IMG/VR virus record: IMGVR_UViG_3300027896_000011
Coordinates: 103,998 to 167,997 of that record
Strand: one strand, 5' to 3'
Length of the DNA stretch: 64,000 nucleotides
DNA from: a virus
Shown: in pieces, positions 22,248-58,900 of the stretch
How positions within the stretch are numbered: the first letter of the stretch is position 1
How the letters are laid out: each line of letters begins with the position of its first letter
Program-made: the position numbers and the translations under genes
The notes under the pieces: model-generated
The model's database searches: none
What the model saw: only the letters and a program-made list of their open reading frames with translations
What the model was told of the DNA's origin: nothing

Positions 22248-22251
22248 CTAT

Positions 22252-22403: not shown

Positions 22404-22438
22404 CAATAGAAATAAAAGTAATAAACTTAAGGAGGCAT

Positions 22439-22600
22439 ATGAAGCCGGAAAACGTAATAGATCAAATACACAGTATTATAAAAGAGTGTATTGGTTTTGA
22501 TGTGAAAGATGCCTACGTAAAGGACGGCATTATATACGCAATTATTAACTGTCCATTGCAGTACATCACACTGACGTTTACTTTATCAGAGGATCAATGA
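22439..22600 (+). CDS. Small hypothetical protein
   Basis: 53 residues from the ATG at 22439, AAGGAGG upstream. MKPENVIDQIHSIIKECIGF then a beta-rich half. Overlaps the next gene by 4 bases. Function unknown. Confidence 0.65.
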   Translation: MKPENVIDQIHSIIKECIGFDVKDAYVKDGIIYAIINCPLQYITLTFTLSEDQ

Positions 22601-22788
22601 CAAAACGAGAAATACTAGATCGCATGCGTGCGGTGCTCCCATATTGTGGGGCCTATGATAATGTCAAGACAGATCTGCATAAAATGGCCGAAGTAATAGC
22701 TGAACTATTTGATATGCAAAATGATCGTATTGATGATTTAGAGATAGAGGTGGTGCGACAGAAGGCGAAGCAAAAAGGGGAGACATGA
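22597..22788 (+). CDS. Small helical protein
   Basis: 63 residues, ATGA start overlap, mostly helix with a coiled-coil-like end (MQNDRIDDLEIEVVRQKAKQK). Function unknown. Confidence 0.65.
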   Translation: MTKREILDRMRAVLPYCGAYDNVKTDLHKMAEVIAELFDMQNDRIDDLEIEVVRQKAKQKGET

Positions 22789-22985
22789 ACAAGAATCACA
22801 CACCACAAATAGCAACCCCGGCAAAGCAGAAGCCGCTAGTGGTCAGGGCTGTTACGTGCGGCATATGTCAGTCACCTGCAGATCGCTACGAATGGGGCTT
22901 CGAGTGTCAAGCAAACCCCAACCATTGCGGGGATCTATACTGTGGTATATTTACTGACCTCACTTATCCGGAGAAAGGTAAGTGA
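22785..22985 (+). CDS. Small zinc-binding protein
   Basis: 66 residues, ATGA overlap. CGICQSPADRYEWGFECQ ... HCGDLYC: a metal-binding arrangement like the MKCAIC family but not an obvious member. It marks the start of the GC-richer mini-gene chain. Confidence 0.65.
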   Translation: MNKNHTPQIATPAKQKPLVVRAVTCGICQSPADRYEWGFECQANPNHCGDLYCGIFTDLTYPEKGK

Positions 22986-23018
22986 GAAAACCATGAGGAC
23001 GGCGAAGAAGGTGCGGAC

Positions 23019-23219
23019 ATGGTGACGAAATCTAATATCGCGATTATTGCAATGCAAGTAGGAGAGACGGACCCATTTAGCGGTGCTGCCTTGGAGAAAG
23101 CGGTAATCATGATGAGTTTTTGGTGGGGGAACATGCTGACCGGTGTAACCCTGACCCGCGCTGAAGCAGTAGCAGTGGTAACGCGATTGAGAGAGGCACT
23201 CGAAGAACTGGACAGGTGA
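23019..23219 (+). CDS. Small hypothetical protein
   Basis: 66 residues (MVTKSNIAIIAMQV...). Helical with RAEAVAVVTRLREALEEL. The 30 bases upstream hold a 10-codon ORF (ATG at 22993, after AAACC) that may act only as a leader. GC-rich codon use. Unknown function. Confidence 0.6.
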   Translation: MVTKSNIAIIAMQVGETDPFSGAALEKAVIMMSFWWGNMLTGVTLTRAEAVAVVTRLREALEELDR

Positions 23220-23223
23220 AACC

Positions 23224-23568
23224 ATGGATGACACAGAATGGGTCAAGTTGAGATTCGGCAATGACTGGGGCCGCAGATACCTGGCCGTTGAGCCGTTGGA
23301 TACTGGGTGTGCCCACTTTAAGCGCGGCATCGTGGCAAAGGAGGGGGAATCAGTCCTGATACGTTGGCCAGACGGCAACGTGGAACATGCGGTCATCACA
23401 AAGATTATGGAGTTGGCGCCGACAAGCCGCGAAGATGTGGGAAGCAGCTATCCCGAAGTGGTCGTGAATCTGCATGGGGGCCGGATACAGATCCCGCTTA
23501 CCCAGGTGGAGGTGCAGCGCAGTTGGGTAGATGCACACACTCCTGGGCGGATGCAGGTGAAGCCGTGA
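23224..23568 (+). CDS. Hypothetical protein in mini-gene chain
   Basis: 114 residues, beta-rich (VLIRWPDGNVEHAVITKIMEL; VVVNLHGGRIQIPLTQVEV), preceded by CAGGTGAAACC. It ends MQVKP; the TGA overlaps a GTG start. Possibly a small SH3/KOW-like barrel; inference only. Confidence 0.65.
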   Translation: MDDTEWVKLRFGNDWGRRYLAVEPLDTGCAHFKRGIVAKEGESVLIRWPDGNVEHAVITKIMELAPTSREDVGSSYPEVVVNLHGGRIQIPLTQVEVQRSWVDAHTPGRMQVKP

Positions 23569-23786
23569 AGTGCGCAATTTGTCAGCAAGAGGTAGAGGGG
23601 TATTGGCAGGAGTGTGAAGTGAGTGATGGCCAAGAGTTGCATACCAGTTGCATCGACGGCCGACTACCAGAGCGCGCCGATGTGATCGCATATCTGCGTG
23701 CTTGGCCTATGCGAGCCGGAAGCGGGCTAGCAATTTCAATCGAACGCGGTGATCACGTAGGCGCAGCGGGAAAGGAGAAGCCATGA
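23565..23786 (+). CDS. MKCAIC-family small zinc-binding protein
   Basis: 73 residues from a GTG overlapping the upstream TGA. (M)KCAICQQE opening, second Cys near residue 29, then RLPERADVIAYLRAWPMRAGSGLAISIERGDHVGAAGKEKP. About 30 residues of its second half are nearly identical to the protein at 822-1055, on the other strand 22 kb away. The final codons GGAAAGGAGAAGCC form the next gene's ribosome site. Confidence 0.82.
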   Translation: MKCAICQQEVEGYWQECEVSDGQELHTSCIDGRLPERADVIAYLRAWPMRAGSGLAISIERGDHVGAAGKEKP

Positions 23787-24022
23787 CGTTCAATAGCTCG
23801 GACGCAGAAATGGACCGGCAAGACGACGCGCACGAACACGGCCGCATAGAAGGCTACCTGGAAGGCCGCAAGAAGGAACGCCAGCTTGTGGTGTATTGGG
23901 TACGCAGGTGGGTAGGCGACGTGGATCCAATAGTGATAGCCCGCATGATCGAAAAGGGCGAGCACGCGGGCGAGGGATTCGGCGATTGCTTCCCAGGGTC
24001 GAAACTGAGGATGAAGCCATGA
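23783..24022 (+). CDS. Hypothetical protein related to MKCAIC family tail
   Basis: 79 residues, ATGA start. Lacks the CxxC opening but shares the tail pattern VIARMIEKGEHAGEG seen as IIERGLHEGM and SIERGEHIGAA in the MKCAIC proteins. Charged helical N-terminus. Ends LRMKP. Function unknown. Confidence 0.65.
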   Translation: MTFNSSDAEMDRQDDAHEHGRIEGYLEGRKKERQLVVYWVRRWVGDVDPIVIARMIEKGEHAGEGFGDCFPGSKLRMKP

Positions 24023-24225
24023 AGGCGGAGATCACTTTGACAGCAGCCAAGTGTCAAGGGAATAACCATGTATATGGCGAAACCTTCCGGTGTAGGTGTG
24101 GAAAGTATCGCTTGAGCTGGGAAGGGCCTAATGCTCCTTGGTCAATTCAAGCGCTTGAGGAATCATTAGACGGACAGCGACAATGCGTTTGGGTAACCAT
24201 AGGACAGCAGGAGGCAAAGCTATGA
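24019..24225 (+). CDS. Small zinc-binding protein
   Basis: 68 residues from the ATG in AAGCCATGA. AAKCQGNNHVYGETFRCRCGKY provides three or four metal ligands. Function unknown; coupled to both neighbours by overlap. Confidence 0.65.
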   Translation: MKAEITLTAAKCQGNNHVYGETFRCRCGKYRLSWEGPNAPWSIQALEESLDGQRQCVWVTIGQQEAKL

Positions 24226-24449
24226 CCCGCGACACCCGCACCGCCCGCAAGGCAGACGCATTACTGAAAATGACCGCAGCACACTCCGACAGCGCTGAGC
24301 GCGCGAAGATTGCAGCGCCATGTACTCACGATAGAGAACCTCCGGTACGTAGCGATTGGGGGCAGTTGTGTTGCTCTAGGTGCGGACGCTATTTGTTTGA
24401 CGATGATTCCATCTGCAGAGACGTAGTTGACGCCGTGACGGGGGAGTGA
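24222..24449 (+). CDS. Small zinc-binding protein
   Basis: 75 residues starting at the ATG overlapping the upstream TGA. Basic helical N-terminus, then CTHDR ... CCSRCGRYLF, a metal-binding pattern. Function unknown. Confidence 0.65.
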   Translation: MTRDTRTARKADALLKMTAAHSDSAERAKIAAPCTHDREPPVRSDWGQLCCSRCGRYLFDDDSICRDVVDAVTGE

Positions 24450-24453
24450 AGTC

Positions 24454-24645
24454 ATGAAGCGCGCGGACTTCGAGGCGATGCAGAAGCGACTGGCTGATGA
24501 GATTGCCCTAAGCGAGAACGAGCTGCGTTTTCTCAGCAAAGAAATCGACCGCGCTGTGAGGAAGGCGCGGAAGGAAGAGCGAATGCGAGCTTGCAAGTAT
24601 TTGACAGGCGTGAGCCGAGACGCCCGGTTGAAGGATTATCGGTGA
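24454..24645 (+). CDS. Small coiled-coil protein (MKRAD family)
   Basis: 63 residues, MKRADFEAMQKRLADEIA..., highly charged helix to the end. Its first residues match the 13-codon remnant at 1750-1791, linking the two mini-gene chains. GAAGTC precedes the ATG. Function unknown. Confidence 0.65.
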   Translation: MKRADFEAMQKRLADEIALSENELRFLSKEIDRAVRKARKEERMRACKYLTGVSRDARLKDYR

Positions 24646-24668
24646 GCCATGAAAACGAAAGGGAACCA

Positions 24669-24998
24669 ATGACCAAACAGAAGACCGCCAAGAACTACGA
24701 CCCGAAGCCCGGAACCTATGTGATCGTGCGCTGCCGCGATGCTGGCGTCCACGCCGGGGAGTTCGTCGCGCACCCCGCCGATAGAACCGTGGTCCTCAAA
24801 AACTCGCGCCGACTGTGGTACTGGAAAGGGGCCGCGTCGCTGTCAGAGTTGGCAGTGTACGGCGCGAAGGATGTCAGCGCGTGCCGTTTCGGTGTGCTCA
24901 TCACTCCGCCGCTCCCACTGCTGGACGCGTGTGAAATCATCGTGTGCCAACCTGCCGCGAAGGGCATGATCGTGCAGTGCCCGGAATGGCGCGCGTGA
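24669..24998 (+). CDS. Hypothetical protein
   Basis: 109 residues from the ATG at 24669 (GGGAACCA upstream; a 7-codon ORF at 24649 overlaps it by ATGA). Beta-rich: TYVIVRCRDAGVHAGEFVAHPADRTVVLKNSRRLWYWKGAASLSELAVYGAKDVSACRF. This resembles the DUF6948-type phage protein pattern, which I cannot confirm. Very GC-rich. Confidence 0.65.
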   Translation: MTKQKTAKNYDPKPGTYVIVRCRDAGVHAGEFVAHPADRTVVLKNSRRLWYWKGAASLSELAVYGAKDVSACRFGVLITPPLPLLDACEIIVCQPAAKGMIVQCPEWRA

Positions 24999-25273
24999 TT
25001 CCGGTTGCGTTCCCAAGCGCTGCTACAGTGGCGCGATCCGGTGACGGTGCCGGTTACGGTGCCGGTTACGGTGCCGGTGACGGTGCCGGTTACGGTGCCG
25101 GTGACGGTTACGGTGCCGGTTACGGTGCCGGTGACGGTTACGGTGCCGGTTACGGTTACGGTGCCGGTGACGGTTACGGTGCCGGTTACGGTGCCGGTTA
25201 CGGTGCCGGTGACGGTTACGGTGCCGGTTACGGTGCCGGTTACGGTTACGATGCCGGTTACGGTTACGGTTAG
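24986..25273 (+). CDS. Glycine/tyrosine repeat protein (GAGYGAG repeats)
   Basis: 95 residues overlapping the previous gene by 13 bases. A short lead (MARVIPVAFPSAATVARS) is followed by about 75 residues of GAGYGAGDGYGAG-type repeats, encoded by hexamer units GGTGCC, GGTTAC and GGTGAC. Because the DNA is a hexamer repeat, two other frames (one on each strand) are also open, and the true frame is not certain. Function unknown; silk-like low complexity. Confidence 0.5.
   Translation: MARVIPVAFPSAATVARSGDGAGYGAGYGAGDGAGYGAGDGYGAGYGAGDGYGAGYGYGAGDGYGAGYGAGYGAGDGYGAGYGAGYGYDAGYGYG
25038..25271 (+). repeat. Hexanucleotide tandem repeat array
   Basis: About 39 consecutive six-base units GGT(GCC/TAC/GAC) with the order changing irregularly. 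Such an array is prone to slippage and in-frame length change, because each unit is two codons. Confidence 0.9.
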
Positions 25274-25396
25274 CACATGACCGCCGCGCTCTTCGTTGTT
25301 GGCTTAAACGCCGTCGATGATCAGTAACTGAACACTAAATACAGGGTGTCTTTACCCACCGCTGGGGCCTCTTAGGGTAGGAGGCCTCAGCATTAT

Positions 25397-25468
25397 CCGA
25401 GCGTAGTTCAGTGGTAGAACGCTATCCTTACACGGTAGATGTCGGAGGTCCAATTCCTTCCGCTCGGA
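25397..25468 (+). tRNA. tRNA-Val(TAC)
   Basis: Acceptor CCGAGCG/CGCTCGG, D stem GTTC/GAAC, anticodon loop CTTACAC on CTATC/GGTAG, T arm GGAGG TCCAATT CCTTC, discriminator A. A GGCCTC/GAGGCC hairpin lies 30 bases upstream. Confidence 0.9.
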
Positions 25469-25591
25469 CATTTTTTATTGACTTATATTTTTTTCTTGAG
25501 TAAATTAGCACTTAGAAAATAGAAAATAGAAAATAGAAGATAGCGCAAATGAGTTAGTCGATTCTAGAAACAATGTAGCAGGAGAAAAGCG

Positions 25592-26428
25592 ATGATTGAA
25601 ACAGTAGTAGGTAGGCCAAAATCTGTACGTTCAAAGGTTAACGTTAGATTTATTGGGTATCTCACCCTATCATTGGCCAAAGAGTGTAAGGCTTGCTTAG
25701 AGGGGCGTCTTGCATTAGAGCAAGATGGCAATAGCAGATCTGAGCTGATCGGTTTGATTAAAATGCTAGATCAGCGTATTCAGGAATTTACTGTTACAGC
25801 AGTGCCTGTAAAGGAACCTGAAAAAGAAGTAGGTAAAACAGTTTGGGAACCGTTGTCTGATCAACCTTTAGAAGAGAAACCAGTTTCTGTTAGGCCGTCT
25901 GTAAAGTTGATTACACGCGATGATATGCCTAATTTTAGTGGTTCTCAGTTACGTGCAATTAAGTCTGCATTGTATGCCGTTGGGCATAGTGAAGCTGTAA
26001 GGGATGCTAGGCTGTCTCCTGGTCTTCCTTTTATTGAACCCTTTGTCATACCCGTAGTTGGTAAACATAGCGTAATTGCGCTAACTACGTTTAGAGATGA
26101 CGATGATATGGGCTGTACAGATTATTATAATTGTACGGTTAATGATGTATTTCTCGGTAAAAACTGTCATATTGAATCTCCTTTAGTATTGAAAGATCCA
26201 ATCGAAGATAGAGAGATGTATTTTTACGATGGCAGTATTCGCGGAGAAAAAGTGAATTGTTACGCCATTCATGCCGTTGATGGAACATTTATTCATTTTT
26301 GGAAATCAAGTATATCTAAAGGAGATAGGATTAACCTTCCCGGTGGAGCAGATTTTGTTGTGCGGGTAAGTGCTAAGGGAGAGGTGTCTTTTGTTCCGAG
26401 TACATCTAGAACAAAAACTGTTTGCTAA
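25592..26428 (+). CDS. Hypothetical protein
   Basis: 278 residues, GGAGAAAAG ribosome site. N-terminal helical region (LAKECKACLEGRLALEQ), a proline/glutamate linker, then a beta-rich C-terminal domain. AT-rich again, unlike the preceding chain. No family recognised. Three AGAAAAT repeats lie about 70 bases upstream. Confidence 0.65.
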   Translation: MIETVVGRPKSVRSKVNVRFIGYLTLSLAKECKACLEGRLALEQDGNSRSELIGLIKMLDQRIQEFTVTAVPVKEPEKEVGKTVWEPLSDQPLEEKPVSVRPSVKLITRDDMPNFSGSQLRAIKSALYAVGHSEAVRDARLSPGLPFIEPFVIPVVGKHSVIALTTFRDDDDMGCTDYYNCTVNDVFLGKNCHIESPLVLKDPIEDREMYFYDGSIRGEKVNCYAIHAVDGTFIHFWKSSISKGDRINLPGGADFVVRVSAKGEVSFVPSTSRTKTVC

Positions 26429-26439
26429 TTGGTGTAGTA

Positions 26440-26802
26440 GTGGTAGGTCCAATTTGTCCATATTGTGGGCAACCGTCTAATCTTGTAAATGGTAAGATAG
26501 TTTACCCACATAGGCATGATTTATATGATAAGCAGTTTTGGTTGTGTCAGCCTTGCGTTGCTTTTGTTGGGTGTTACCCTCACTCAACTAAACCCTTGGG
26601 TAGTTTAGCTAATGCAGAATTGCGGAAAGAAAGAAGTAAAGTACATGCTGCTTTTGATCTGATTTGGAAGCGTGGGGGTACGCCTAGAAGTAAAGCGTAT
26701 ATATGGCTAGCCAATCAATTAGGATTGCCGGTAGAAGAATGTCATATAGGAATGTTCGATGTGCAGTTATGTAGGAGTGCTTTAACACTACTACGTACTT
26801 AA
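26440..26802 (+). CDS. DUF3268-like zinc-finger protein
   Basis: About 120 residues; the start is uncertain (GTG at 26440, or TTG at 26422 overlapping the previous stop). CPYCGQPS, YPHRHDLYDKQFWLCQPCVAFVGCY and KPLGSLANAELRKERSKVHAAFDLIW follow the order of the phage zinc-finger family DUF3268, ending with the WLANQLGL..HIGMFD segment. Probable nucleic-acid-associated protein. Confidence 0.7.
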   Translation: MVGPICPYCGQPSNLVNGKIVYPHRHDLYDKQFWLCQPCVAFVGCYPHSTKPLGSLANAELRKERSKVHAAFDLIWKRGGTPRSKAYIWLANQLGLPVEECHIGMFDVQLCRSALTLLRT

Positions 26803-26833
26803 TGATACTTTGACTGGGAGAAATCCCGGTCGT

Positions 26834-26906
26834 GCCTGTGAGGTTCCCTGGTGGGAACGCTTGCTTGTCAAGCAAGATTGGGCGAGTTCAATTCTCGTCA
26901 CAGGCG
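26834..26906 (+). tRNA. tRNA-Asp(GTC)
   Basis: Acceptor GCCTGTG/CACAGGC, D stem GTTCC/GGAAC, anticodon loop TTGTCAA, T arm GCGAG TTCAATT CTCGT, discriminator G. Confidence 0.92.
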
Positions 26907-26911
26907 CTATT

Positions 26912-26984
26912 CCTCGTGTAATTCAGTGATTAGAATGCGCGCTTTATAAGCGTGAAGCCGTTGGTTTGAATCCAACCACGAGGA
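26912..26984 (+). tRNA. tRNA-Ile(TAT)
   Basis: Acceptor CCTCGTG/CACGAGG, D stem ATTC/GAAT, anticodon loop TTTATAA on CGCGC/GCGTG, T arm GTTGG TTTGAAT CCAAC. A TAT anticodon reads ATA directly, unusual for bacteria, which mostly use a modified CAT tRNA. Confidence 0.85.
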
Positions 26985-27028
26985 CAAATTATTTGCGGGC
27001 ATGATGGAATGCAGACAACAAGGAGAAA

Positions 27029-27517
27029 ATGGGAAAGAAGGTAATCCTAAAAGACATTGTTAGACCAGACGCCCGAGTGTACGGGCCGTATTTTAGAAAA
27101 GATGGAAGAAAGCATGTAGTACTTTGGTGGTCTAAGACAAACATGCGAACAGTGTCCTATCCTAAATGGCTTATGGAGCAGAAATTAGGAAGGGAACTAG
27201 ACCCTGATCTAGAGACAATAGATCATATCGACAGGGACCATACAAACAATACTGATGGTAACCTACAGATACTGCCCAGGTCTGTGCACGCAGGTTTGGA
27301 TGCTAAAAGAGCAGTGCCAGCAAAAATGAAATGCCTATGGTGCTCTAAGTCACTTCTTATAAACAGATCGATGTTCAATCATAACAGAAGGCAACATAGA
27401 GCAGGTCCATTCTGTAGTAAGTCTTGTTCCGGAGGTTATGGTGCTTCTGTACGATTTGGTGGGGCAAAGATATTTAGTAGTTGTGTTAAGCTTAAGCATA
27501 CTATGATAGATAAGTAG
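27029..27517 (+). CDS. HNH endonuclease (homing-type)
   Basis: 162 residues, AAGGAG ribosome site. ETIDHIDRDHTNNTDGNLQILPRSVH carries the H-N-H core in the HNH_3 style. The C-terminal CLWCSK ... CSKSC is a separate zinc knuckle. Sits between tRNA genes, the usual location for a mobile homing nuclease. Confidence 0.85.
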   Translation: MGKKVILKDIVRPDARVYGPYFRKDGRKHVVLWWSKTNMRTVSYPKWLMEQKLGRELDPDLETIDHIDRDHTNNTDGNLQILPRSVHAGLDAKRAVPAKMKCLWCSKSLLINRSMFNHNRRQHRAGPFCSKSCSGGYGASVRFGGAKIFSSCVKLKHTMIDK

Positions 27518-27523
27518 ATCAAT

Positions 27524-27597
27524 GGCGGGCTAGCCCAACTGGAAGAGGCATCGGTTTTAAGCTCCGATCAGTAAGAGTTCAAATCTCTTGCCCGCTA
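27524..27597 (+). tRNA. tRNA with irregular anticodon arm (TAA, Leu?)
   Basis: Acceptor GGCGGGC/GCCCGCT and T arm AAGAG TTCAAAT CTCTT form. Standard numbering gives loop TTTAAGC (anticodon TAA) with a T-T mismatch closing the loop; otherwise the loop is 9 bases. It has a short variable loop, unlike other tRNA-Leu. Isotype uncertain. Confidence 0.6.
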
Positions 27598-27606
27598 CTA
27601 ACTTAT

Positions 27607-27691
27607 GCAACGATGGCGGAACAGGTATACGCACATGCCCTAGAAGCATGCGTCGAAAGACATACGAGTTCGATTCTCGTTCGTTGCACCA
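27607..27691 (+). tRNA. tRNA-Leu(TAG) with C33 and encoded CCA
   Basis: Acceptor GCAACGA/TCGTTGC, anticodon loop CCTAGAA (C33), class II arm CGTC GAAA GACA, T arm ACGAG TTCGATT CTCGT, discriminator A at 27688 followed by CCA. Confidence 0.87.
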
Positions 27692-27705
27692 TCTAACTTA
27701 TTCTT

Positions 27706-27789
27706 GCCGACATGTTGAAACAGGTAGCCAAGCATGTCTCAGAAACATGTGTCTTAAGTGATGTGGGGATTCGACTTCCTCTGTCGGCA
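27706..27789 (+). tRNA. tRNA-Leu(CAG)
   Basis: Acceptor GCCGACA/TGTCGGC, anticodon loop CTCAGAA on CATGT/ACATG, class II variable arm, T arm GGGGA TTCGACT TCCTC, discriminator A. Last tRNA of the region. Confidence 0.88.
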
Positions 27790-27802
27790 CAAGGAGGTAT
27801 TG

Positions 27803-31653: not shown

Positions 31654-31979
31654 ATTGTGAATTAGTGCCTAAAAAAACGGATAAAGAAACAGTGCTAGAA
31701 GGAGTGGGTCTGTGGCAAGTAGGCTTCTCTTATGATGCTTTAGCACTGATTCCCTGGATGAGCGGATTAGTGAAGATACATGATATCTATTGTAATGATC
31801 ATGGAATCTTTTTTATTATCCGCAGTTTAGATAAGACTTCCTGCTTGTGTGTTACAGGAACTATACGAGGCAGTTCACTTAATTCCGTGAAACTGCCTCG
31901 TCAGGCTTTGTGTGTAGCTGTTACCTCTTCTGTGGCTTCCAACGAGCGACCGTATCAATGTCGGCTAGCAAATTGCTAA
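31650..31979 (+). CDS. Hypothetical protein
   Basis: 109 residues, ATGA overlap with the protease gene. Its last 59 bases overlap the 3' end of the convergent ParB-like gene, and a GAGGCAGTTCAC inverted repeat (31867-31899) lies just before that overlap. Function unknown. Confidence 0.6.
   Translation: MNCELVPKKTDKETVLEGVGLWQVGFSYDALALIPWMSGLVKIHDIYCNDHGIFFIIRSLDKTSCLCVTGTIRGSSLNSVKLPRQALCVAVTSSVASNERPYQCRLANC
31867..31899. terminator. Inverted repeat between convergent genes
   Basis: GAGGCAGTTCAC pairs with GTGAAACTGCCTC with one bulged A. It lies at the meeting point of plus- and minus-strand genes, inside coding sequence; it may slow or stop both transcripts. No U-run. Confidence 0.45.
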
Positions 31980-32871
31980 TAGCCGTATGGCATCTTATCA
32001 GGTCTTCGTGATCTAAATCTTTAAGAACGAGTACTGTCTCTTCAGTTAACTCGCCTTTAAGTGTTTTAGCGTGTTCACATAGTTCTCTACTGAGCACAGT
32101 AATTCGGTCGTAGAGGCGTAAGGCTGGATTTACATTGTGCTTGCCTTTATCTCCGGGAGGTAAAGGTTTCTTAGGCCGTTCATTGATTATGCGTATTCGT
32201 TCTTCTGTTTGTTCTTGTGTCTCTGTGAGCATAATCTGTAATTCTATTTTTTGATCATCTTCACTCATACGAGCGAGCAAGTCTGCTTGTCGCTTAGTAA
32301 TTTGTTCATTCTTATAAGCTTGTGCAGCTTCAAGAATCAATTTATCTAAGGCTATTGCTCGCATAACGGTACGGGCACTGACGTTTTGGTCTTTAGCTAC
32401 TGCTTTAATAGCTTCAGTATCTATGTTTTGAGATGGTCCACTTTTACTGGATTTAAATCTTTCGGGGTCTGGAATGTCTCCTTGATCTCGAAGTAGTTGT
32501 TGCTTTTTTACTTCTACTAGTTCTTTTAGAGCTTCATCTCGTTTAGAGGAGCTCAGGTCTTCTCTACCGAAATTTTCACTTATTGATTCCTGGCGTGCGT
32601 CAAGATCATCCAAGTCTTTAACTAGACAAGGAATCTTGTTCATTTTTAGTTTTCTACATGCCTGGAATCTTCTATCTCCGGTTATGTATTCATAACCTTT
32701 TGCCTCTTTCTTTTTACGAACAACGATAGGATTGATTACTCCTGCGCTTTCGATATGGGTACAGAGTTCATCTAGTTTATCGGTGCTAAATTCTCTGGTC
32801 CAGTGGAGGGGGCTTTTACGAATTTTTGCTGTTTCGATTTCTTGATATTTTGGTTGTTTGAGCTTCGGCAT
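31921..32871 (-). CDS. ParB-like protein
   Basis: 316 residues. TREFSTDKLDELCTHIESAGVINPIVVRKK, GYEYITGDRRFQACRKL and ISENFGREDLSSSKRDEALKEL are ParB/Sulfiredoxin-type motifs: the nucleotide-binding GDRR and ENxxREDLS. A helix-turn-helix-like region (AVAKDQNVSARTVMRAIAL) follows, then a coiled coil. It could bind phage DNA, as in partition or transcription control. No parA is in the window. Transcribed with the gene at 33328. Confidence 0.88.
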   Translation of the reverse strand: MPKLKQPKYQEIETAKIRKSPLHWTREFSTDKLDELCTHIESAGVINPIVVRKKKEAKGYEYITGDRRFQACRKLKMNKIPCLVKDLDDLDARQESISENFGREDLSSSKRDEALKELVEVKKQQLLRDQGDIPDPERFKSSKSGPSQNIDTEAIKAVAKDQNVSARTVMRAIALDKLILEAAQAYKNEQITKRQADLLARMSEDDQKIELQIMLTETQEQTEERIRIINERPKKPLPPGDKGKHNVNPALRLYDRITVLSRELCEHAKTLKGELTEETVLVLKDLDHEDLIRCHTAISNLLADIDTVARWKPQKR

Positions 32872-38617: not shown

Positions 38618-39673
38618 ATGAATACAAAAGATCGAAATACTGTGAGTTTTTCTAAACCACCTGTAGAGGTAATCAAGAGTATGCCTAATAGAAATCTATC
38701 TTCAGAACAACAGGCCCAAAGAGATATGATGGATCAGATCAAGTCTGGAGGTAGACCTGTAGGAGGAGTTCCTCCTGTTAAAATTCCTCCGCTAGATGCA
38801 GAGCCATTGAAGGGTGGAGGCACTATGGCATCTCAAGCAGTCCCTCTTTCAGACCCGAGAAATCCTCTTAGCCCCATATACAGCCCAGAATTAGCGGCTA
38901 TGGCGGCTAAACAAGGTGGTCCATTTACTACGTTGCCAGAAGAAGCTAAGCAAGACCCACGTTTTAGACCAGGCGTGGGTTCTATGATTGCCGAGAATCA
39001 ACCACAGCTAGCTGCACCACCTGCTCCTTCAGCAGAGCGTAAACCTATTTTGCGGGAAGAAACAAAAAGAGATTTAGAGAAGTTAGCTTCTTTCCAGCAA
39101 ACAGCTGAGAATATCCAACAGAAGACATTAGATGAACAAGACAAAAAGATCGAAGAAGAAATTACTAAAGATTCAGCAACGTACTCTACAGAGATAAACG
39201 CTATTCTTAATGATGATGACATTAACCTTCTTAATAATCCGACTCGTCGTAAAGATATAGAAAGCAGGTTGTCCCCTCTTAATATAGAAGACATTTTGAT
39301 CTATGGGGAGTTGAGACAAGAAGTGTCTGTAGTGCCGGGTAAGACTAAATACGAGTTCAGGTCTACTACTGGAGAAGAAGATCTAGCGGTTAAACGTATG
39401 ATGTATGGTGAAACTGGTGGGGATAGATACATGATAGATAAGTTCGGTTTGATGAACTTAGCTTTAGGGTTGGTATCTTTAAATGGTATGGCTCTTCCTT
39501 CTCATCTTAATGATAAAAAGCGTTTTGATGAGACCTTGTTCATTAGGAAGTATGAAGCGTTAATGAAGTTCCCGGTACAGTTATTGGCAGATTTATCTGT
39601 CCAGTATATGTGGTTTGATCAGCGTATACGGAGGTTATTTGTTAAGTCTGCGGAGGCGTTAAAAAACTCTTAG
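38618..39673 (+). CDS. Probable tail/baseplate assembly chaperone, short (unshifted) form
   Basis: 351 residues. A long proline/glutamine-rich linker region (residues 1-~150) leads to a folded C-terminal half. That half has MNLALGLVSLNGMALP...RFDETLFIRKYEALMKFPVQLLADLSVQYMWFDQRIRRLF, a pattern I associate with T4 gp26-like baseplate chaperones (NG, then a hydrophobic -L-x-MP/FP-x-x-L block). It ends in KNS-stop immediately after a frameshift signal at 39661 that would join it to the next frame. The domain assignment is tentative; the frame is secure. Confidence 0.8.
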   Translation: MNTKDRNTVSFSKPPVEVIKSMPNRNLSSEQQAQRDMMDQIKSGGRPVGGVPPVKIPPLDAEPLKGGGTMASQAVPLSDPRNPLSPIYSPELAAMAAKQGGPFTTLPEEAKQDPRFRPGVGSMIAENQPQLAAPPAPSAERKPILREETKRDLEKLASFQQTAENIQQKTLDEQDKKIEEEITKDSATYSTEINAILNDDDINLLNNPTRRKDIESRLSPLNIEDILIYGELRQEVSVVPGKTKYEFRSTTGEEDLAVKRMMYGETGGDRYMIDKFGLMNLALGLVSLNGMALPSHLNDKKRFDETLFIRKYEALMKFPVQLLADLSVQYMWFDQRIRRLFVKSAEALKNS

Positions 39674-39760
39674 CGACTCCACTAGGATGGGCTCGAGCTA
39701 ACTTATTTTATGACAAGCTAGTAGAGCCTCCTACGCCAGGTACTATGTTGGAGTCGCTAA
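39661..39760 (+). promoter_or_regulatory. Programmed -1 ribosomal frameshift signal
   Basis: The canonical slippery heptamer A_AAA_AAC (39661-39667) is in register with the upstream gene (tta aaa aac tct tag). Two bases later a perfect 12 bp stem starts (TTAGCGACTCCA at 39670-39681 with TGGAGTCGCTAA at 39749-39760), with an inner GGCTC/GAGCC helix. The 0-frame stop is at 39671, inside the stem. A -1 shift continues in an ORF open to 40059. Confidence 0.88.
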
Positions 39761-40059
39761 TGTTGTTGGTATGGAAATCAAGGCAAGAAATACGGCTGTA
39801 TGAGACAAAGGCAGTAGTTAACGCGATTATGATTGCTGGACAGCCACCTAAAGATGAGCTCAATAAGCTCATGCAAGAAAGCTGGGATGCATATATAGAC
39901 AACATTTATCCATATAGTAAGGGTAAAGCAAAGACTCAAGATCAAAAGGCTATAGAATTTATGAGACAAGAAATCAGTAAAGGACCTTTGAAAGTTACAC
40001 CACTTGAGCCATTAACTAATGCGGGTAAACGTAGGAGAAAGGATATGCGTCATGGGTAG
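39667..40059 (+). CDS. Frameshift extension of the 38618 protein
   Basis: In the -1 frame after the heptamer, 130 codons follow (LLATPLGWARANLFYDKLVEPPTPGT...). The region before its first ATG (39745) reads like protein, not spacer, and no upstream start codon with a ribosome site exists. So this is best seen as the C-terminal part of a ~480-residue fusion, like G-GT tail chaperones of other phages. An internal start at 39745 could also give a 104-residue product. Ends in a basic KRRRKDMRHG tail. Confidence 0.8.
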   Translation, partial: LLATPLGWARANLFYDKLVEPPTPGTMLESLMLLVWKSRQEIRLYETKAVVNAIMIAGQPPKDELNKLMQESWDAYIDNIYPYSKGKAKTQDQKAIEFMRQEISKGPLKVTPLEPLTNAGKRRRKDMRHG

Positions 40060-41445: not shown

Positions 41446-41766
41446 ATGAGCAACCAACGAAATCGATTAATGGAACAACCTAGTGAACCTAATTATAAGA
41501 GTGCAGGTGCTGTTGCCCCACTAGAGCTTTATGTAGTGGGTGATATCACTGATGGTGAGGGGCAGGTTACTCCTTCGCGTGTTGTGTGCCGTATTAAAGG
41601 CACTCAGAAGTTTTTCTTCCCCTTTGTTAAGGGAGTAGAGGAAACCATGAAGTCTGTGGCTCCTTGGCTACAGAAAATACTGGAGGAGAAACTATCTCCT
41701 GAGGGTAGCAAGGCTGCTGTTCCATCAGATATGGATTCGTCAATAGCTACAGGGAGTCCTCTATAA
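41446..41766 (+). CDS. Hypothetical protein
   Basis: 106 residues, AAAGGAG upstream, beta-rich (PLELYVVGDITDGEG; RVVCRIKGTQKFFFPFVKGVEE). Its stop overlaps the groES-like start (TAATG). Confidence 0.65.
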   Translation: MSNQRNRLMEQPSEPNYKSAGAVAPLELYVVGDITDGEGQVTPSRVVCRIKGTQKFFFPFVKGVEETMKSVAPWLQKILEEKLSPEGSKAAVPSDMDSSIATGSPL

Positions 41767-42104
41767 TGAAGTTATTGGGAGACGGTATATTAGTGTCTTT
41801 AGACCCGGAGAAGGACACTATGGCTTCGGGTTTACTTATTAAACCAGAGACCGCACATGAACATGTCTTTCGTACTGCAAAGGTAGTTCAAGTAGGCCCC
41901 GGCAAATATGTGCCAGGTAAGTCAATACGTCAACCAATGGAAGTGTCTCCTGGGGATGGGGTAGTCTTCATTAAGTTTGTAGCTACTAGTACAGAAACAG
42001 CTAAAGCAATTCAAAAAGAAATTGGTCAAGATCAGGCTATCATCCACCCAGATGACGTATTGCTTGTTTTTGATCATGATAATCATCCGGAGTTTAATCA
42101 ATGA
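41766..42104 (+). CDS. GroES-like co-chaperonin
   Basis: 112 residues. LGDGILVSLDPEKDTMASGLLIKPE (the mobile loop region), TAKVVQVGPGK, and SPGDGVVFIKFVAT are the Cpn10 signature segments. Length fits the family (about 95-115). Phage co-chaperonins work with host GroEL to fold capsid proteins (compare T4 gp31). Confidence 0.88.
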   Translation: MKLLGDGILVSLDPEKDTMASGLLIKPETAHEHVFRTAKVVQVGPGKYVPGKSIRQPMEVSPGDGVVFIKFVATSTETAKAIQKEIGQDQAIIHPDDVLLVFDHDNHPEFNQ

Positions 42105-48876: not shown

Positions 48877-49977
48877 CTATGGGCAGATCCATTGGACCCC
48901 GTTGTCATACGAATTGGATGGATATACTAATGATACCTTGCAGCTTGGTGTTATCACCGTGCAGGTAGCTTTCATTTTTACTATATCGTTTATCCAATCC
49001 AGATTTCCTTGTAGAGTGTTTATTGCACAATACACAGGGTTGCCTGCTCTGTCATGGGACGCACAATCTAGACTTTGTTCCCATTGCCAGTAACCGTCCC
49101 CTGTTTTAACGTATACTGGTGGACGTGCACAGCACGGTTGCCCTACATTACCGCAAGCTACAACAGTATCCGTAGAGGATACTGTGTCTGGCGGAGAAGC
49201 ATCAGGAGAAGATATACGTCCACCAGTACCTATCATTCCTCCTGTCTCAATATTACCCCCGGTACCTGCAAATCCACCCGTACCTGCAAATCCACCCGTA
49301 CCTGTTGCTCCTCCGACACCAATGGGCAGGTCTTGTATGATTTCCCCTGTGCTACTACAATGGCAACTACACGTATTGCCCATAACAAGGCAATTGCTAC
49401 AGAGTAAGGTGTCTCCCGGATAGTAGAATTTACCGCCGTAGAGGCACCACACTGCCGGAGTGGTGCTTCCACCAACCCCAATAGCTCCTCCGGTGCCTGG
49501 GGTACCCCCTGTACCAGATAGATTGATAGTACCACCCATACCTATGGTTCCACCTGTACCTGTAGATCCACCAGTACCTATGAACTCGAACCCACCCGTA
49601 CCCATTGTTCCTTCGATGCCTGGGTTACCCCCAGTACCAGAGGGATTGATGTTGCCACCTGTACCTGGGGTTCCACCAACCCCAATAGCTCCTCCTGTAC
49701 CTGTGGTACCGCCAGTACCTGGTGTTCCCCCCGTACCTGGTGTACCACCTGTACCTGGTGATTCTACTGTTCCACCAGTACCCATTACATCTACCATACC
49801 TGTGGTTGAGGTTACTGTTGTAATGCCACCAGTGCCGTTACTGATAATTACTCCGGCTGTACCTCTAGTATCAGGGGTATTTCTTACGCTGTTTATTCCA
49901 CCGTCATTGGTGGAGTGAAATCCGGCCGTATCCATCGTACAGCCTGCTAGCATGATCAGACCGATTAGGTGTTTCAT
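48877..49977 (-). CDS. GTGG-repeat lipoprotein
   Basis: 366 residues. MKHLIGLIMLAGC is a short lipoprotein signal with a cysteine lipobox. Residues ~48-180 and ~225-260 are made of GTGGTPGTGG-type repeats, broken by a cysteine-rich module (WCLYGGKFYYPGDTLLCSNCLVMGNTCSCHC). A C-terminal cysteine-rich domain ends at 48877. This style, lipobox plus GTGG linker plus Cys-rich domains, is common in Myxococcota surface proteins. Probably exported to the host envelope. AAGGAG and GGTATAAG lie just upstream. Confidence 0.8.
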   Translation of the reverse strand: MKHLIGLIMLAGCTMDTAGFHSTNDGGINSVRNTPDTRGTAGVIISNGTGGITTVTSTTGMVDVMGTGGTVESPGTGGTPGTGGTPGTGGTTGTGGAIGVGGTPGTGGNINPSGTGGNPGIEGTMGTGGFEFIGTGGSTGTGGTIGMGGTINLSGTGGTPGTGGAIGVGGSTTPAVWCLYGGKFYYPGDTLLCSNCLVMGNTCSCHCSSTGEIIQDLPIGVGGATGTGGFAGTGGFAGTGGNIETGGMIGTGGRISSPDASPPDTVSSTDTVVACGNVGQPCCARPPVYVKTGDGYWQWEQSLDCASHDRAGNPVYCAINTLQGNLDWINDIVKMKATCTVITPSCKVSLVYPSNSYDNGVQWICP

Positions 49978-50064: not shown

Positions 50065-50313
50065 ATGACAGCACAACAGGCCATTTATATCTCTCTGGCA
50101 AAACCCCAAGGTAAAGAGTATTCTGAGTGCAATATTAATGAGCGTATAGCTGCAATGGCTTCTGAGCTCGAAGAATTTAATAAGTACATGCGCAATTTAC
50201 CACCGGAGAAGGGTGGAGGAGCGCTGGCTCCATTAGAGATGACTCTTATTAGAACGTATCTTGCGTGGAAGCTGAGTAATGTCACGCAGACAGCTAACAG
50301 TATTAAGGATTGA
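50065..50313 (+). CDS. Hypothetical protein
   Basis: 82 residues, helical, no ribosome site stronger than weak AT-rich sequence. MTAQQAIYISLAKPQGK...LAPLEMTLIRTYLAWKLSN. Start of the virion gene block. Confidence 0.6.
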   Translation: MTAQQAIYISLAKPQGKEYSECNINERIAAMASELEEFNKYMRNLPPEKGGGALAPLEMTLIRTYLAWKLSNVTQTANSIKD

Positions 50314-50757: not shown

Positions 50758-53700
50758 ATGCCAGTATATAGTGGCCAGACAAGTGGAATGATATCCCAGC
50801 AGAATCAAATGTTTGCTGGGTATGGTTCGTATGCTGGAACATTCTCCCCTGGAGCACCTCCAGGAATGATGAATTACGGGGAACCTAATAGCCAGCAAGG
50901 TCCATATGGTGGGGCATATCCTACATTCCCTACCGCTCAATATGAAGCAGGACAGCATGTATTAGGCGGTATACATGCCGCGTTACCTACTGCTATTGGT
51001 GCTGCTACTTTTGCTGGTGCCTTTCTACCCGGATTTGTTGGAACATCAATAGGTAGATTAGACCCCTTCCAGGCAGCATTAAGTGGGTTTGGCAGAGCTT
51101 CTGGGGTATCCAGGGGTATTGCTGGTATGGGCGTAATGGACTCCATAGGCACTATGGGGGCTAATATAGGGCGTATTGGAGCTGGTGGCGTAGGTAATGT
51201 GTTCCGGGCAGGATTAACAGGAATTGGTGGAGCTGCAGCTGCTTCTTTTTTGCCATTAGCTGGTTTAGCTGCAGTTCAACATGCTACAGGGCAAATGGCT
51301 GAAGGGGCTCAGTTTACTGGGCAGGTACAACGGACTCTTGGGCAGAACTTCCGTTTCTTGAACCCACAATCTCAGACGGGTTATGGATTTAGTAGAGAGC
51401 AGGGGGCTGAGATAGCGGATACTATCCGGACAATGGGGAATAAAGACATAATGTCCTCTCCTCAAGAGATGCTCCGGATAATGAATCAAAGCATTCAGGG
51501 AGGTCTATTCAGGCCGGTACAGGATGCAAAGGCTTTTCAGGAGAAGTTTAAAGAGGTAGTTGCGGCGGTAAAAGAGATAGCAAAGACGTTCAATACTACG
51601 CTCGAGGGGGCTATGCCTTTCTTACAAGAGGGCAGGCGTATGGGGTTCTGGACACCTGCGGATATACAGAGGATGGCAGGGTCTACATTAGGTACTGCCA
51701 AGATTACTGGTTTATCGGTAGCTCAAGTGCAACAGATGCAGCAGCAGGGTGCAGATATGGCTCGTCAGGTAGGGGCTGTAGGGGCTACTGGAGCTAGAGG
51801 GATGACGGGTAGTTTAGGTTTAGTGGGTGGGGCTATTAGAGGTGGGGTTTTGTCTGAGCAAGCACTGTCGGATATGACTGGTGGGTTAACTGGCAGTGAT
51901 GCAATACAGGCATTTGCTGGACAGTTGCAGGCATCAGCGACTAGGTTTTCTGCTTCTGGTACTGGTCGTTGGTTATTGGCTGGATTAGCCGGAAAGGATA
52001 TGAGGCATTTAGATAAGGGAAAGCTTGCTATGTTGGCGTCGGGGCAGATAAGTGCTGGAGATCTTAGAGGTATGGCAGAGAAAAATGTTCAGGGGCGTGG
52101 TGCTGCTTTCCGGATGGGAGAGGAGGAGATGCGTGGTGATTTGTTAGAGATGGGGTTTGAAGGTCAGGCCGGATTTTTAAAGGGATTAGTAGGTGATCGT
52201 CTTTATGGTAAATCTGATATGGATAAGTACGTTACACGTAGGCTTATTCAGCGGTTTACAGGTGGGACATCTAAAGAAGCTGATGCTAAAGCTGAGATGC
52301 TCAGAAATATGGAGCAAACTCTACGGGAGAATAAACAAAATAGTGAGGCTCTTTTTGATCAAAAGGCACGAGATCAAAAAGAATTGATGGATCATTCATA
52401 TGAGGGTCTTAAACGTAAAGTAACTTTGTGGTGGAAGAGTAATATAGATGATCCGTTACAGGAAGTTGGATCTAAGCTTTCTGAGGATATAGGGGATACT
52501 GTAGAGAGTTTTTCAGATAAGTTTTGGGGAAGGTCTCCTAGAGCATTGCGGAATATGGGAATAACCAGTGGTATGGCTAGAGCTATGCGTGCTGGAGCGT
52601 TTGGAGATTTAAAGACAGAACGTAACACATTTGCTTCTAAACAGGAGATGATTGATTTATTTGGTAAACCTCAGTCAGGGGCAGTTCAAGAACGACTTTT
52701 AAGTACTCCTGGGGGGAGAGATAGTGCTAAAGGGTATGCTTTGTTAGATGCAACTTCTGGGTCTTTGAGTGCTGAAAGAGCTAAGGCTCTTGGATACAGT
52801 AGTCAGGATGCTGCCAGTAAAGGATTAGCGACAATATCTGAAGCATGGGGAACTCCCGGTATAATAGATGCACTTGAGGCATCGAAGAGTGAAAGTGCAT
52901 TTTCCAGGGGGGGTGACGTAGTTGCAGCTATGTCGGCTAGTAAGTATGTGTCCGCAGAAGCAAAAAAACAATTTTTAGGTATTACTGCTGCACAGCAGGA
53001 AGCACGTGTAATTGCCTCTGCATCTTTAAATATCAGAAAGAGAGGTAGATTACAAACTTCAGAAGAAGCTGAAAGAGTACGTAAGTCAGTAGGGTTAGGT
53101 TCTGGGCAGGATGATAATACTACGGAACAAAAAATTAATGAGCGTTGGGATACTGCTTTAAATAAGTTAGGGGGCGATTATGTAACTCAAAGCCCAGAAG
53201 AGAGGGGATATGGGTTAAAAGGAATTATTTGGGGTCTAAAAGGAAATGTTCGAGGTGTTTTTGAACAGCTTAATGATTTCGGTTTTGGTAATAATACATT
53301 AGGTAACGATGTATTATTAGGTTCATTTGTTAGAGCTGGAACGAAGGTGGGAACATCTAATCCAAAAGCCGACGTTCATAAGCTTATGACTAGCGAGGAT
53401 GGAGAGCAGTTTAAGGGAATATTAGGGAAATTGGGTAGGGGTGATGTTGAGGAAGCCAGTGTAGAAGCTGCTAAGTTAGCTAGTAAATATTATGGTAAAG
53501 AGGGAGAGGAAGGTAAACATAAGATATTAAATGACATAGCTCATAAGGAAAATATTGAGGCGTATACTGAGTTAGGTAAAATGCAACAAGCTAGGAGTAC
53601 GTTGCAGAGAGATGATACTTTTCAAAAAAGATTGGGACAAGTTAAGTCAAGTTTAGAGAGTCATGGAGATCTTGCGGGGGTAATGGAGGGTCTTACAGGT

Positions 53701-54381
53701 GCTGGGCTTGGAGGTTTGGCGGATTTAATTGGTAAAGGCAATGTTGGTCAAAGTGCTCCAGATATTGTAAATGCGGCAATGGCTGCAGTAGAAGGAGTTA
53801 CTGATCCAAAGCAGTTAGCACGTGCAGCTGCATTGTTAAAAGAATCGGGGGCAGTAGGTGCTGGTTTTATAGAACAGGCAATTGGAGGTAGAGCACATAA
53901 ACTTAGTATTAGTAAGTCACTTAAAGGGCATAGAGGTATAAGTGCTACTGATCTTGATTATGTAGGTAAAAGTTTACTGGGTAGGGAGTTTACTCCTGAT
54001 GAACTTAAAAAATCGTTAGGAAGTAAGGGTGGGGAGTATATTAAACATTTTGTTGCTGGTGAAATAAGTACAAAGCATATAGATGCTCAACAAGGAAAAA
54101 TATTAGAAGAGTTTCTACAAGGTAGAAGACATGGGGATGGAGGAGTATATAGTGCTGTAGATAAAATAACTAAAGCGCATATGGTAGGTGCTTTAGGTGG
54201 TGGTGCTGAAGGGGCAAGAACATTAGCAGGAAGAGGTACTCTTCCTGGTATTCATACGACACTTTTAGATATTCTGTCTGCTGTAAAAAGCGATAAGAAA
54301 GAGCCACCGCAGGGTACTAATGCTGCTAATGGGTTCGATCCTGCGCCTAAAAAGGATTTTTCACCCCTCAAACCTGAGTAA
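50758..54381 (+). CDS. Large structural protein, probable tape measure
   Basis: 1207 residues. N-terminal ~65 residues are glycine/proline/tyrosine-rich (VYSGQTSGMISQQNQMFAGYGSY...). Then hydrophobic alanine/glycine segments (residues ~70-180) with membrane-like runs, followed by long helical, coiled-coil-rich sequence with glycine-rich interruptions. Size, membrane-like stretch and helical repeat content fit a phage tape measure protein that sets tail length. Followed directly by tail/baseplate-like genes. Weak ribosome site. Confidence 0.7.
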   Translation: MPVYSGQTSGMISQQNQMFAGYGSYAGTFSPGAPPGMMNYGEPNSQQGPYGGAYPTFPTAQYEAGQHVLGGIHAALPTAIGAATFAGAFLPGFVGTSIGRLDPFQAALSGFGRASGVSRGIAGMGVMDSIGTMGANIGRIGAGGVGNVFRAGLTGIGGAAAASFLPLAGLAAVQHATGQMAEGAQFTGQVQRTLGQNFRFLNPQSQTGYGFSREQGAEIADTIRTMGNKDIMSSPQEMLRIMNQSIQGGLFRPVQDAKAFQEKFKEVVAAVKEIAKTFNTTLEGAMPFLQEGRRMGFWTPADIQRMAGSTLGTAKITGLSVAQVQQMQQQGADMARQVGAVGATGARGMTGSLGLVGGAIRGGVLSEQALSDMTGGLTGSDAIQAFAGQLQASATRFSASGTGRWLLAGLAGKDMRHLDKGKLAMLASGQISAGDLRGMAEKNVQGRGAAFRMGEEEMRGDLLEMGFEGQAGFLKGLVGDRLYGKSDMDKYVTRRLIQRFTGGTSKEADAKAEMLRNMEQTLRENKQNSEALFDQKARDQKELMDHSYEGLKRKVTLWWKSNIDDPLQEVGSKLSEDIGDTVESFSDKFWGRSPRALRNMGITSGMARAMRAGAFGDLKTERNTFASKQEMIDLFGKPQSGAVQERLLSTPGGRDSAKGYALLDATSGSLSAERAKALGYSSQDAASKGLATISEAWGTPGIIDALEASKSESAFSRGGDVVAAMSASKYVSAEAKKQFLGITAAQQEARVIASASLNIRKRGRLQTSEEAERVRKSVGLGSGQDDNTTEQKINERWDTALNKLGGDYVTQSPEERGYGLKGIIWGLKGNVRGVFEQLNDFGFGNNTLGNDVLLGSFVRAGTKVGTSNPKADVHKLMTSEDGEQFKGILGKLGRGDVEEASVEAAKLASKYYGKEGEEGKHKILNDIAHKENIEAYTELGKMQQARSTLQRDDTFQKRLGQVKSSLESHGDLAGVMEGLTGAGLGGLADLIGKGNVGQSAPDIVNAAMAAVEGVTDPKQLARAAALLKESGAVGAGFIEQAIGGRAHKLSISKSLKGHRGISATDLDYVGKSLLGREFTPDELKKSLGSKGGEYIKHFVAGEISTKHIDAQQGKILEEFLQGRRHGDGGVYSAVDKITKAHMVGALGGGAEGARTLAGRGTLPGIHTTLLDILSAVKSDKKEPPQGTNAANGFDPAPKKDFSPLKPE

Positions 54382-55913: not shown

Positions 55914-58900
55914 ATGTCTATAGGGCACAAACTAGGATTGCGTTTATTTATGGAGGGTATTGAGGTACCCGTCATAAGTGCGCAAATTCAATGTATTGCA
56001 GATGCTACTGCTGCGGCTTCTATTCAGATCATAGCTACAGATAAAGCATTAGAGTTTATGCCCCGCACTATGGTGCACCTATTTTTCTATGATTTTATAG
56101 GTGCTGAAATGTCTGGGGGAGCTGTTACTACAGATCAAATAGAGTTTGATTATAAACAGTATAAACTGTTGTTTATGGGGGAGGTACAAGGATTTTCATT
56201 TGCTAAGTCAGCAGGCAGCAGATCTGTTATGCTTAATTGCGTAGACTTCTCTTGTTATTGGGACACTACTTATCAGTATAACTTCCAAGGGCAATTACTC
56301 GGTGGGCGTAGAGAAGCAGCATTTATAGGTGCTAATGCTAATTTGTTCACTGGGGTGCTTGGTCATGGTGTTGGATTTATTTCAAGATTATTATCAGGAA
56401 AGCCTGTCAGCTTCCCACAATTAGAAGGGTTGCTTGGTGGGATTATCCATGTTCTCGAGGCTATAGGCGGGGCGTATTATGGTGCAGATACATTTAAAGG
56501 TGCTAATGATTTTACTGCTTTAGCTGAACTTAGAATCAAACTACTTCAGCAAATTTGGGCAGCGGAAAAGGACACAAGTACTAAGAATCTTTTTAATCAT
56601 AAAACATTTAATATGTGGATGAACCGGGAGATTGGTGGGTTAGATAAGTTAGTTACTTTCCGGGGCTTAGTTCAGCTTATGCAGAGGTTTATATACCATG
56701 AGGTGTATCCTAACCCTGCAGCGTATTTTGTGCCTGGTGTAGAGGGATTAAAACGTCCAGGTACATCTATAACAGATATAGCTAAAGACCCAAGAACAGC
56801 TGCTTTTTGGGCGGATATGCAAAGAGTAGAAAAATCACGACAAGTAGCACAGTCAGGAATTAATGGAGCTAAAGAGGGGTTAGAGGTACCGAAAGAAACT
56901 ACTCAAGCTCTTCAAGAGATACAAAATATACTGGGAAAAGTAGCTCGTACTGTTCCTAATGTGCCGGGATTAGATCTGGTCAAAAACGTCACTATTATGC
57001 AAGATAGTCTTAAGTCTATTAACACGGCCTTATTTACGGGTAATAATTTCGAGCCAGACCCACAAAAGCTAAATAGTCCAAATGCTGCTGCTGCTAGTGA
57101 TGCATTAATGAGTTTGTATAATGCTTGGTTTACTATGTTTGATTCTAAGATCAAAAATAACATTGTTATTACATACAATAAATTAGATCGGATTAATAAT
57201 CAGTTATACCGTCCAGATATTTGGTTCGGAGCAGCTCCTAGATGTAATGTACTTTTCCCTGAAATGTATGAGTCCTTTCAATGGACTAGAAATTATTTGC
57301 GGGAAATAACTAGATTAGAGTTGCAATTAACACATGAGCTTCTTGGCGATGATGCTTTATTCAATCAACGTAACTATGCCCCTGACGTAGCTGATGTTCG
57401 TAAAGGGATAAAGCTTAGTAGCCGGAAGTTTAATAATTTCATCATGTACCATGAGTTGATGACAGGCATCATCCCTATGTACGAGAAGATGACTCAGGCT
57501 AATTTATTTGCCATGAAGTCTAAGGCTGTGTCTGCTTCCGGTGGTGATAAAGTTAGTTATGCGCAGAGAGCAGTCAATCATCAGTACTTCAAACATAGAT
57601 TTGCAGCAAGACAAATGAATGCGAATGGGCGGTTTAATCCTTGGTTCGTTCCAGGATTCCCTGCAGTCATAATTGATCGACCAATGACTATGAGTGACTT
57701 AGTTGATGCGGCACTTCCTATAGATCAATTATTAGCTAAATTAAAAGAACGTCCTGGGTTTGAAGACGTAACGGGAGACCCTAAGACAGGTACTCCACCT
57801 AGTAGAGCAAAGGTATTGAAAAATCTAGTAGGACCACAATACACGGGTGTTTGTGTTCAGTTAGCGCACTCTTTGTCTCAAGAGGGAGGAACAACTTCTT
57901 ATGCTTTCTCGGAGGCTAGAATACACCGGGAAAGTACAGAGTTCTTAGGAGTTGATAAGATATATACCTCTGTAGGGACCGGAAAGTTTGGTACAAAGCA
58001 TACTGTAGTAGCTTGCTTATCGGATAATATACCTAAGATAAAGGGTAGGGGTCCTTGTCATGGGGTTATTACAAAAGTATCTGAAGATCTTACATCTAAA
58101 TTTAATGGCCAAGAATTCCCAGTATACCCTGGTCCAGGAACGGCAACAGTAGGGGAATTTACAACAGGACCTAGTAACACAGAAGGACAAGTAGGGCCTA
58201 GTAATTTTTATCGAGCACGGAGGGTTACAGAAGAAGTAGAGGTGCGCAAGAAGATAGCCACAACTAGACCAATGGAAGATGCAATAGCTCCTCCATGGAT
58301 ATGGGATGGCTGGAAGAATCTCAAAATTGGAGAAACCTATAAGGAGATGATAGGAACGTACGCTATCACTGATGTTCAGGGTGTAATTTCAACGGAGTTG
58401 GTGGGCAACGCTCTATTGGCGGATAAAGAGTTACAAGCGTTATATGATACTGAGTTAGGGTATCAGACAGGTAGTGGGGCTTATTTAGATAAAGATAATA
58501 CAGGAGACTACCAATCAAGGCCAAGTGTGCCGGCGCAAGATAAAGTAGTTACGAATAGACGTAAAAGGAAAGGTAAGCAACCACCGCCTACTGTGTCTCA
58601 AGAAGCAGCTTCTGGAGAACTCAGTGCTGCAATGATGCTAGCTATAGATACTGATAAAACTATTGAAGCTAGTATTGATTTTCTTGTTCGTGTTTACAGC
58701 ATGGTGCGTACTGGAGGGTTTGATGTAGGTGAGTTTATACGTCAATACACTTGGCGTCCCATAGCCACTATTGATCAGATACTTGGTACTTCAGATCTGA
58801 TTATAGAGGAAGCATATAAAAATAATGGAAAAAATGGAGTCATTCAAGGAACAGAAGGATTCCATAGTAGAGCGTTTGGCAATGTGGCTGGGTTAGAAAA

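Follow-up and report, generated by a model that had tools for sequence, protein, structure and literature searches.

In phage lambda, the genes for the tail assembly chaperone pair gpG/gpGT lie directly before gene H, which encodes the tape measure protein. The short form and the fusion both bind the tape measure, and the T part of the fusion binds the tail tube (PMC5009743). Pairs of such anatomy joined by a -1 frameshift are widely tail chaperones in tailed phages (PMC5009743). In most tailed phages the pair is located between the genes for the major tail protein and the tape measure, and this order is strongly conserved (PMC3025963). Bacillus phage G has two proteins with the annotation tail assembly chaperone: gp181, which ends in TTA AAA AAC TAG (LKN), and gp182, the product of a joined gene with the tape measure adjoining.

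The locus described here lies in a 64,000-nt stretch of DNA (the window), corresponding to bases 103998-167997 of the 168-kb IMG/VR record IMGVR_UViG_3300027896_000011. With a probability of about 0.86, it encodes a G/GT-type tail assembly chaperone pair made by -1 programmed frameshifting. It was classified as a variant of the G/GT type because it does not occupy the usual position and matches no known sequence family. On comparative sequence grounds the frameshift is considered real with high confidence, and a tail-chaperone role is likely, judging from the predicted structure.

The source is a large uncultured tailed phage, and the pair belongs to an undescribed lineage with contigs of up to 150-210 kb. 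Encoded in the same record are a Baseplate_J protein and a GpA-type terminase with an intein insertion, which fits a contractile-tailed phage; a search for the phage sheath family PF04984 in 15 records gave only a sub-threshold match, in G005. Intein and LAGLIDADG domains occur in three large genes on G000:C1 (44289-50465, L013; 65107-68217 and 71321-74269, L014), one of which is the GpA-type terminase large subunit. In the window, Pfam matches were obtained for a GroES-like co-chaperonin (41766-42104), a sigma-70-like factor (59571-60335) and a ParB-like protein (31921-32871), and a single ORF at 18527-20041 fuses a glycosyltransferase family 2 domain to a radical SAM/SPASM-like domain. An array of 23 tRNA genes extends over 14273-27790, with Lys-UUU and Lys-CUU present and Asn absent, and a gene for an RtcB-type RNA ligase is found inside the array region at 20507-21610. 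The phage Lys-UUU tRNA would decode the P-site codon of the slippery site described below. The features of the locus, in window coordinates, are as follows.

38618-39673, plus strand: 0-frame gene, 351 aa, putative 'G-like' tail assembly chaperone, from the ORF reading, an AlphaFold2 model and Foldseek matches
39661-39667, plus strand: slippery heptamer A_AAA_AAC in X_XXY_YYZ register; an in-register heptamer of one of five types occurs in all 17 sequences
39671-39673, plus strand: 0-frame stop TAG, within the 5' arm of the stem
39667-40059, plus strand: -1 frame extension, putative 'T-like' part, 130 codons plus stop, conserved from the junction (LLATPLGWARANL)
39670-39681, plus strand: stem 5' arm, TTAGCGACTCCA, conserved core 39672-39680
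39749-39760, plus strand: stem 3' arm, TGGAGTCGCTAA, conserved core 39750-39758
39682-39748, plus strand: 67-nt loop; more helices are predicted inside it, one of them extending the main stem inwards

The 0-frame ORF ends ...GCG TTA AAA AAC TCT TAG, and the -1 frame opens at 39646 and continues to a stop whose last base is 40059; two overlapping ORFs, the second in -1, are thus joined at an in-register X_XXY_YYZ site near the end of the first. A first-pass annotation had placed A_AAA_AAC in the correct register at 39661-39667, and recomputed coordinates and register agree. Its further statements that the -1 frame runs open for 130 codons past the heptamer and has no good start of its own were also borne out: the first post-junction ATG in this frame, at 39745, lacks a Shine-Dalgarno match, and neither a -1 start codon nor such a match is conserved across the family. 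The site is rare by chance. When 305 stop-ended frames in the window were scanned (frames of at least 60 codons, a strict XXXYYYZ heptamer ending no more than 5 nt from the stop, and a -1 frame open for at least 60 codons), exactly one site passed, A_AAA_AAC at 39661-39667; Markov-simulated sequence gave one such site in 15 × 64 kb (960 kb). The predicted peptide at the junction had to be revised. The annotation gave LKK-LLATPLG, which would need slippage before AAC is decoded, whereas simple tandem slippage is expected to yield LKN-LLATPLG (tryptic peptide NLLATPLGWAR), because the A-site Asn has already been decoded. A GGAGG motif occurs at 39652-39656, 4 nt before the heptamer, and also in L021 and L023, with none in L022 or the marine group. 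We do not claim it as a stimulator, as only some relatives carry it and its spacing is shorter than in dnaX, where the stimulatory element sits farther from the shift site.

Homologues were collected stepwise: single proteins retrieved two contigs, a three-sequence profile retrieved a third, and a four-sequence profile of the -1 frame retrieved 16 IMG/VR contigs. By sequence, neither the 0-frame nor the -1 product matched anything in Pfam, PHROGs, PDB sequences, GenBank phages or GTDB genomes; none of the 16 members has a significant Pfam or PHROGs family match, and a sequence-profile comparison of the 0-frame product with phage G gp181 was not significant. The AlphaFold2 model of the 0-frame product, built from a 16-sequence alignment, contains a confident alpha/beta domain at residues ~208-350, preceded by a mostly low-confidence, Pro-rich extension at residues ~1-200. 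The long linker that had been remarked on as unlike lambda gpG is real and occurs lineage-wide, its N-terminal part being modelled mostly at low confidence. The product varies in length, from 351 aa in the window to 236-261 aa in the marine relatives.

Among viral predicted structures, the closest Foldseek match to the 0-frame product is a 91%-identical protein of an uncultured phage. Next come, in this order, the tail assembly chaperone of Rhodococcus phage Finch (A0A2P1JXC0; E 1.2e-3, prob 1.00) and the two phage G proteins, gp181 (prob 1.00, TMt 0.73) and, slightly lower, gp182; further down, with low probabilities, are the chaperones of Salgado and CcrColossus, the latter a pre-tape-measure chaperone. 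Wherever one of the first 16 viral matches carries a name, it is gp181 or gp182 of phage G or else a chaperone of the tail assembly or pre-tape-measure kind. Among 350,542 PDB chains, 2OB9, the tail assembly chaperone of HK97, ranked first, with a weak score (E 0.47, prob 0.41, rmsd 6.2). On its predicted structure, the first product thus has a tail-chaperone fold, and the earlier proposal that it is a tail assembly chaperone is supported by the matches to the Finch protein and gp181/gp182. The -1 extension is modelled as helical (pLDDT 73), and no useful structural match was found for it.

Two genes of the putative tail module lie further downstream.

50758-54381, plus strand: putative tape-measure gene, 10.7 kb beyond the pair; product of 1207 aa, rich in Gly and Ala
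55914-59060, plus strand: possible baseplate hub, 1048 aa, from its position and the look of its sequence; a weak tail-module context

Size, composition and position make the ORF at 50758-54381 the only candidate for the tape measure; its product has no PHROG match, and the 1048-aa protein has no database match. The pair is therefore not found at the usual site between the major tail protein and the tape measure, adjoining the latter. The first-pass annotation had put the tape-measure-like gene 10 kb further on; computed from coordinates, the gap is 10.7 kb in the window, and in each of the nine genomes where relatives of the 1207-aa ORF were found, these share the strand of the pair and follow it at a distance of 6.6-28.5 kb. 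Beside the putative tape measure we found no slippery site that would mark a second chaperone pair: the gene at 50065-50313 and the next small gene, considered as such a pair, look like ordinary neighbouring genes and lack a slippery site. Also upstream of the putative tape measure, the minus-strand ORF at 48877-49977 encodes a 366-aa protein composed largely of TGTGG-type repeats, collagen- or spacer-like in character. In the marine relatives, an endolysin-like gene is located directly upstream of the pair (6437-7291 in L025, with equivalents in L026, L027, L029, L030 and L032).

The distance of 6.6-28.5 kb from the putative tape measure supports another reading, in which the frameshift is real and the pair serves, for instance, head assembly, scaffolding or a lysis-linked function. 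The endolysin-like neighbour in the L025 group and the long N-terminal extension point the same way. However, such a role would not account for the tail-related identity of the named proteins among the first 16 viral matches and of the first PDB match, nor for the wide use of -1 pairs of this anatomy as tail chaperones (PMC5009743). Adjacency to the tape measure is a typical feature of these pairs and not a mechanistic one, and we regard a role outside tail assembly as improbable.

The RNA downstream of the heptamer forms a second line of evidence for the frameshift. As first reported, TTAGCGACTCCA at 39670-39681 is exactly complementary to TGGAGTCGCTAA at 39749-39760, giving a perfect 12-bp stem that begins two bases after the heptamer and covers the TAG at 39671-39673. 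The spacer is short: the full stem begins after 2 nt and its conserved core after 4 nt; in L024 and L031 the spacer is 1 nt. With so little room, the lowest base pairs would need to melt before a ribosome could pause. The 99-nt segment that follows the heptamer (39668-39766) folds with z = -3.4, better than 199 of 200 shuffles, and RNAalifold recovers the stem unprompted both in 4 sequences and in 15. For the latter comparison we used the 15 distinct complete sequences, L026 being equal to L028 in this region and L035 incomplete. In the nine-pair core, 90.4% of cells are paired; sliding the partner by 1-3 columns lowers this to 36-51%. Two pairs are altered on both sides (A-U/C-G and U-G/A-U), and the covariation score is 0.166 versus 0.081 in shuffled alignments, a value reached by 1 of 500 shuffles; because the sequences are related, this figure should not be read as a probability, and more weight goes to the slide control. 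Where residues are identical, codon identity is also raised in the two arms, at 0.67 and 0.74 versus 0.36 elsewhere in the near group and at 1.00 and 0.87 versus 0.56 elsewhere in the marine group. The stem is imperfect or shifted in three diverged contigs (L024, L033 and L034) and has a 2-nt bulge in L031; the lone minimum-energy fold of L023 prefers local hairpins though its arms are complementary. The proposed check in homologues thus showed a stem kept with compensatory changes outside those three contigs, and a conserved base-paired structure lies a few nucleotides 3' of the heptamer, as in -1 elements with a 3' stimulator.

The overlap and an in-register heptamer were retained in 17 of 17 sequences (the window and 16 contigs). 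In each, the stop of a long 0-frame ORF comes 7-10 nt after the first base of the heptamer, and the -1 frame continues open past it. The window shares AAAAAAC with three relatives, ten others have AAAAAAT, and GGGTTTT, GGATTTT and GGGAAAC occur once each. Of these, GGATTTT is a heptamer of the G_GA type described in dianthoviruses (PMC5009743). Among the relatives the 0-frame product is as little as about 20% identical to that of the window, and the -1 peptide is conserved from the junction onwards. Homologues with separated frames and ribosome sites of their own, which the first-pass annotation had named as evidence against its reading, were looked for and not found in the 16 contigs. Comparison across the family thus shows the heptamer to be in register, the fusion frame to be selected and the stem to be conserved. 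The strongest evidence that ribosomal slippage itself is a selected trait is that the heptamer type changes while the protein frame stays.

The same comparison bears on the readings that dispense with ribosomal slippage. The -1 frame might be a separate gene of 104 aa starting at ATG 39745, with the stem, whose 3' arm comes just after this ATG, regulating the start and the overlap being incidental. However, conservation in the -1 frame is highest ahead of ATG 39745; this codon is not conserved in relatives and has no preceding Shine-Dalgarno match, and none of the 17 sequences has its heptamer out of register. Conservation from the junction onwards, together with the lack of a conserved start, argues against independent initiation, which we consider very unlikely. 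RNA-polymerase slippage on the six consecutive A of the window could also join the frames, yet relatives use GGGTTTT, GGATTTT and GGGAAAC, always in X_XXY_YYZ register and with an RNA stem found family-wide. The changing shift site argues against transcriptional slippage on an A run, and this reading retains hardly any probability. Both were rejected on comparative evidence. A sequencing or assembly error in one intact gene, conceivable at a homopolymer where frames join, is refuted because all 17 sequences, taken from separate contigs, break frame at the same point, even where the site contains no A6.

Under programmed -1 frameshifting, most ribosomes would stop at 39673 and release the 351-aa protein. 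A smaller share would pause at the stem, slip by -1 on A_AAA_AAC and produce a fusion of ~480 aa, which carries the helical extension of 130 aa. By analogy with lambda, the short form would coat the tape-measure protein and the rarer long form would recruit the tail tube, with the slip rate setting the ratio of the two chaperone forms; it is from this analogy that we infer the binding partners, the short:long ratio and a role of the pair in tail length. As a tentative and rather doubtful extension, the lineage may have moved the chaperone away from the tape measure and added a long N-terminal arm, with a branched, covarying RNA that lies over the stop, close behind the slippery site, driving the shift so that slipping and termination compete there. 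If true, the chaperone pair would be dosed independently of its client.

A likely function can thus be named for a gene pair missed completely by current family libraries. The locus also offers a clean comparative case of frameshifting, since five different shift sites share one homologous position with a covarying stem. Genes of this kind are often sought next to the tape measure; on this evidence such a rule can fail across a lineage, so annotation by position would overlook the pair.

When compared with described systems, the pair resembles lambda gpG/gpGT in having a short form and a -1 fusion made near the end of the first gene by low-level slippage (PMC5009743). It differs in the gap of at least 6.6 kb to the putative tape measure, the long N-terminal extension and the covarying stem. 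Structural matches show a similar mixture. HK97 gp13 (PDB 2OB9) is the best PDB fold match of the 0-frame product, with a weak score, but is a protein of 107 residues as compared to 351 aa here; the Finch chaperone A0A2P1JXC0 is the best named viral structural match, yet shares 15% sequence identity. Phage G gp181 has 115 aa and is without the ~200-aa N-terminal part of the window protein, and the phage G pair, unlike that of the window, lies ~30 bp from its tape measure. In other respects gp181/gp182 is alike: the predicted fold, a short and an extended product, LKN encoded at TTA AAA AAC, and a large phage as the carrier.
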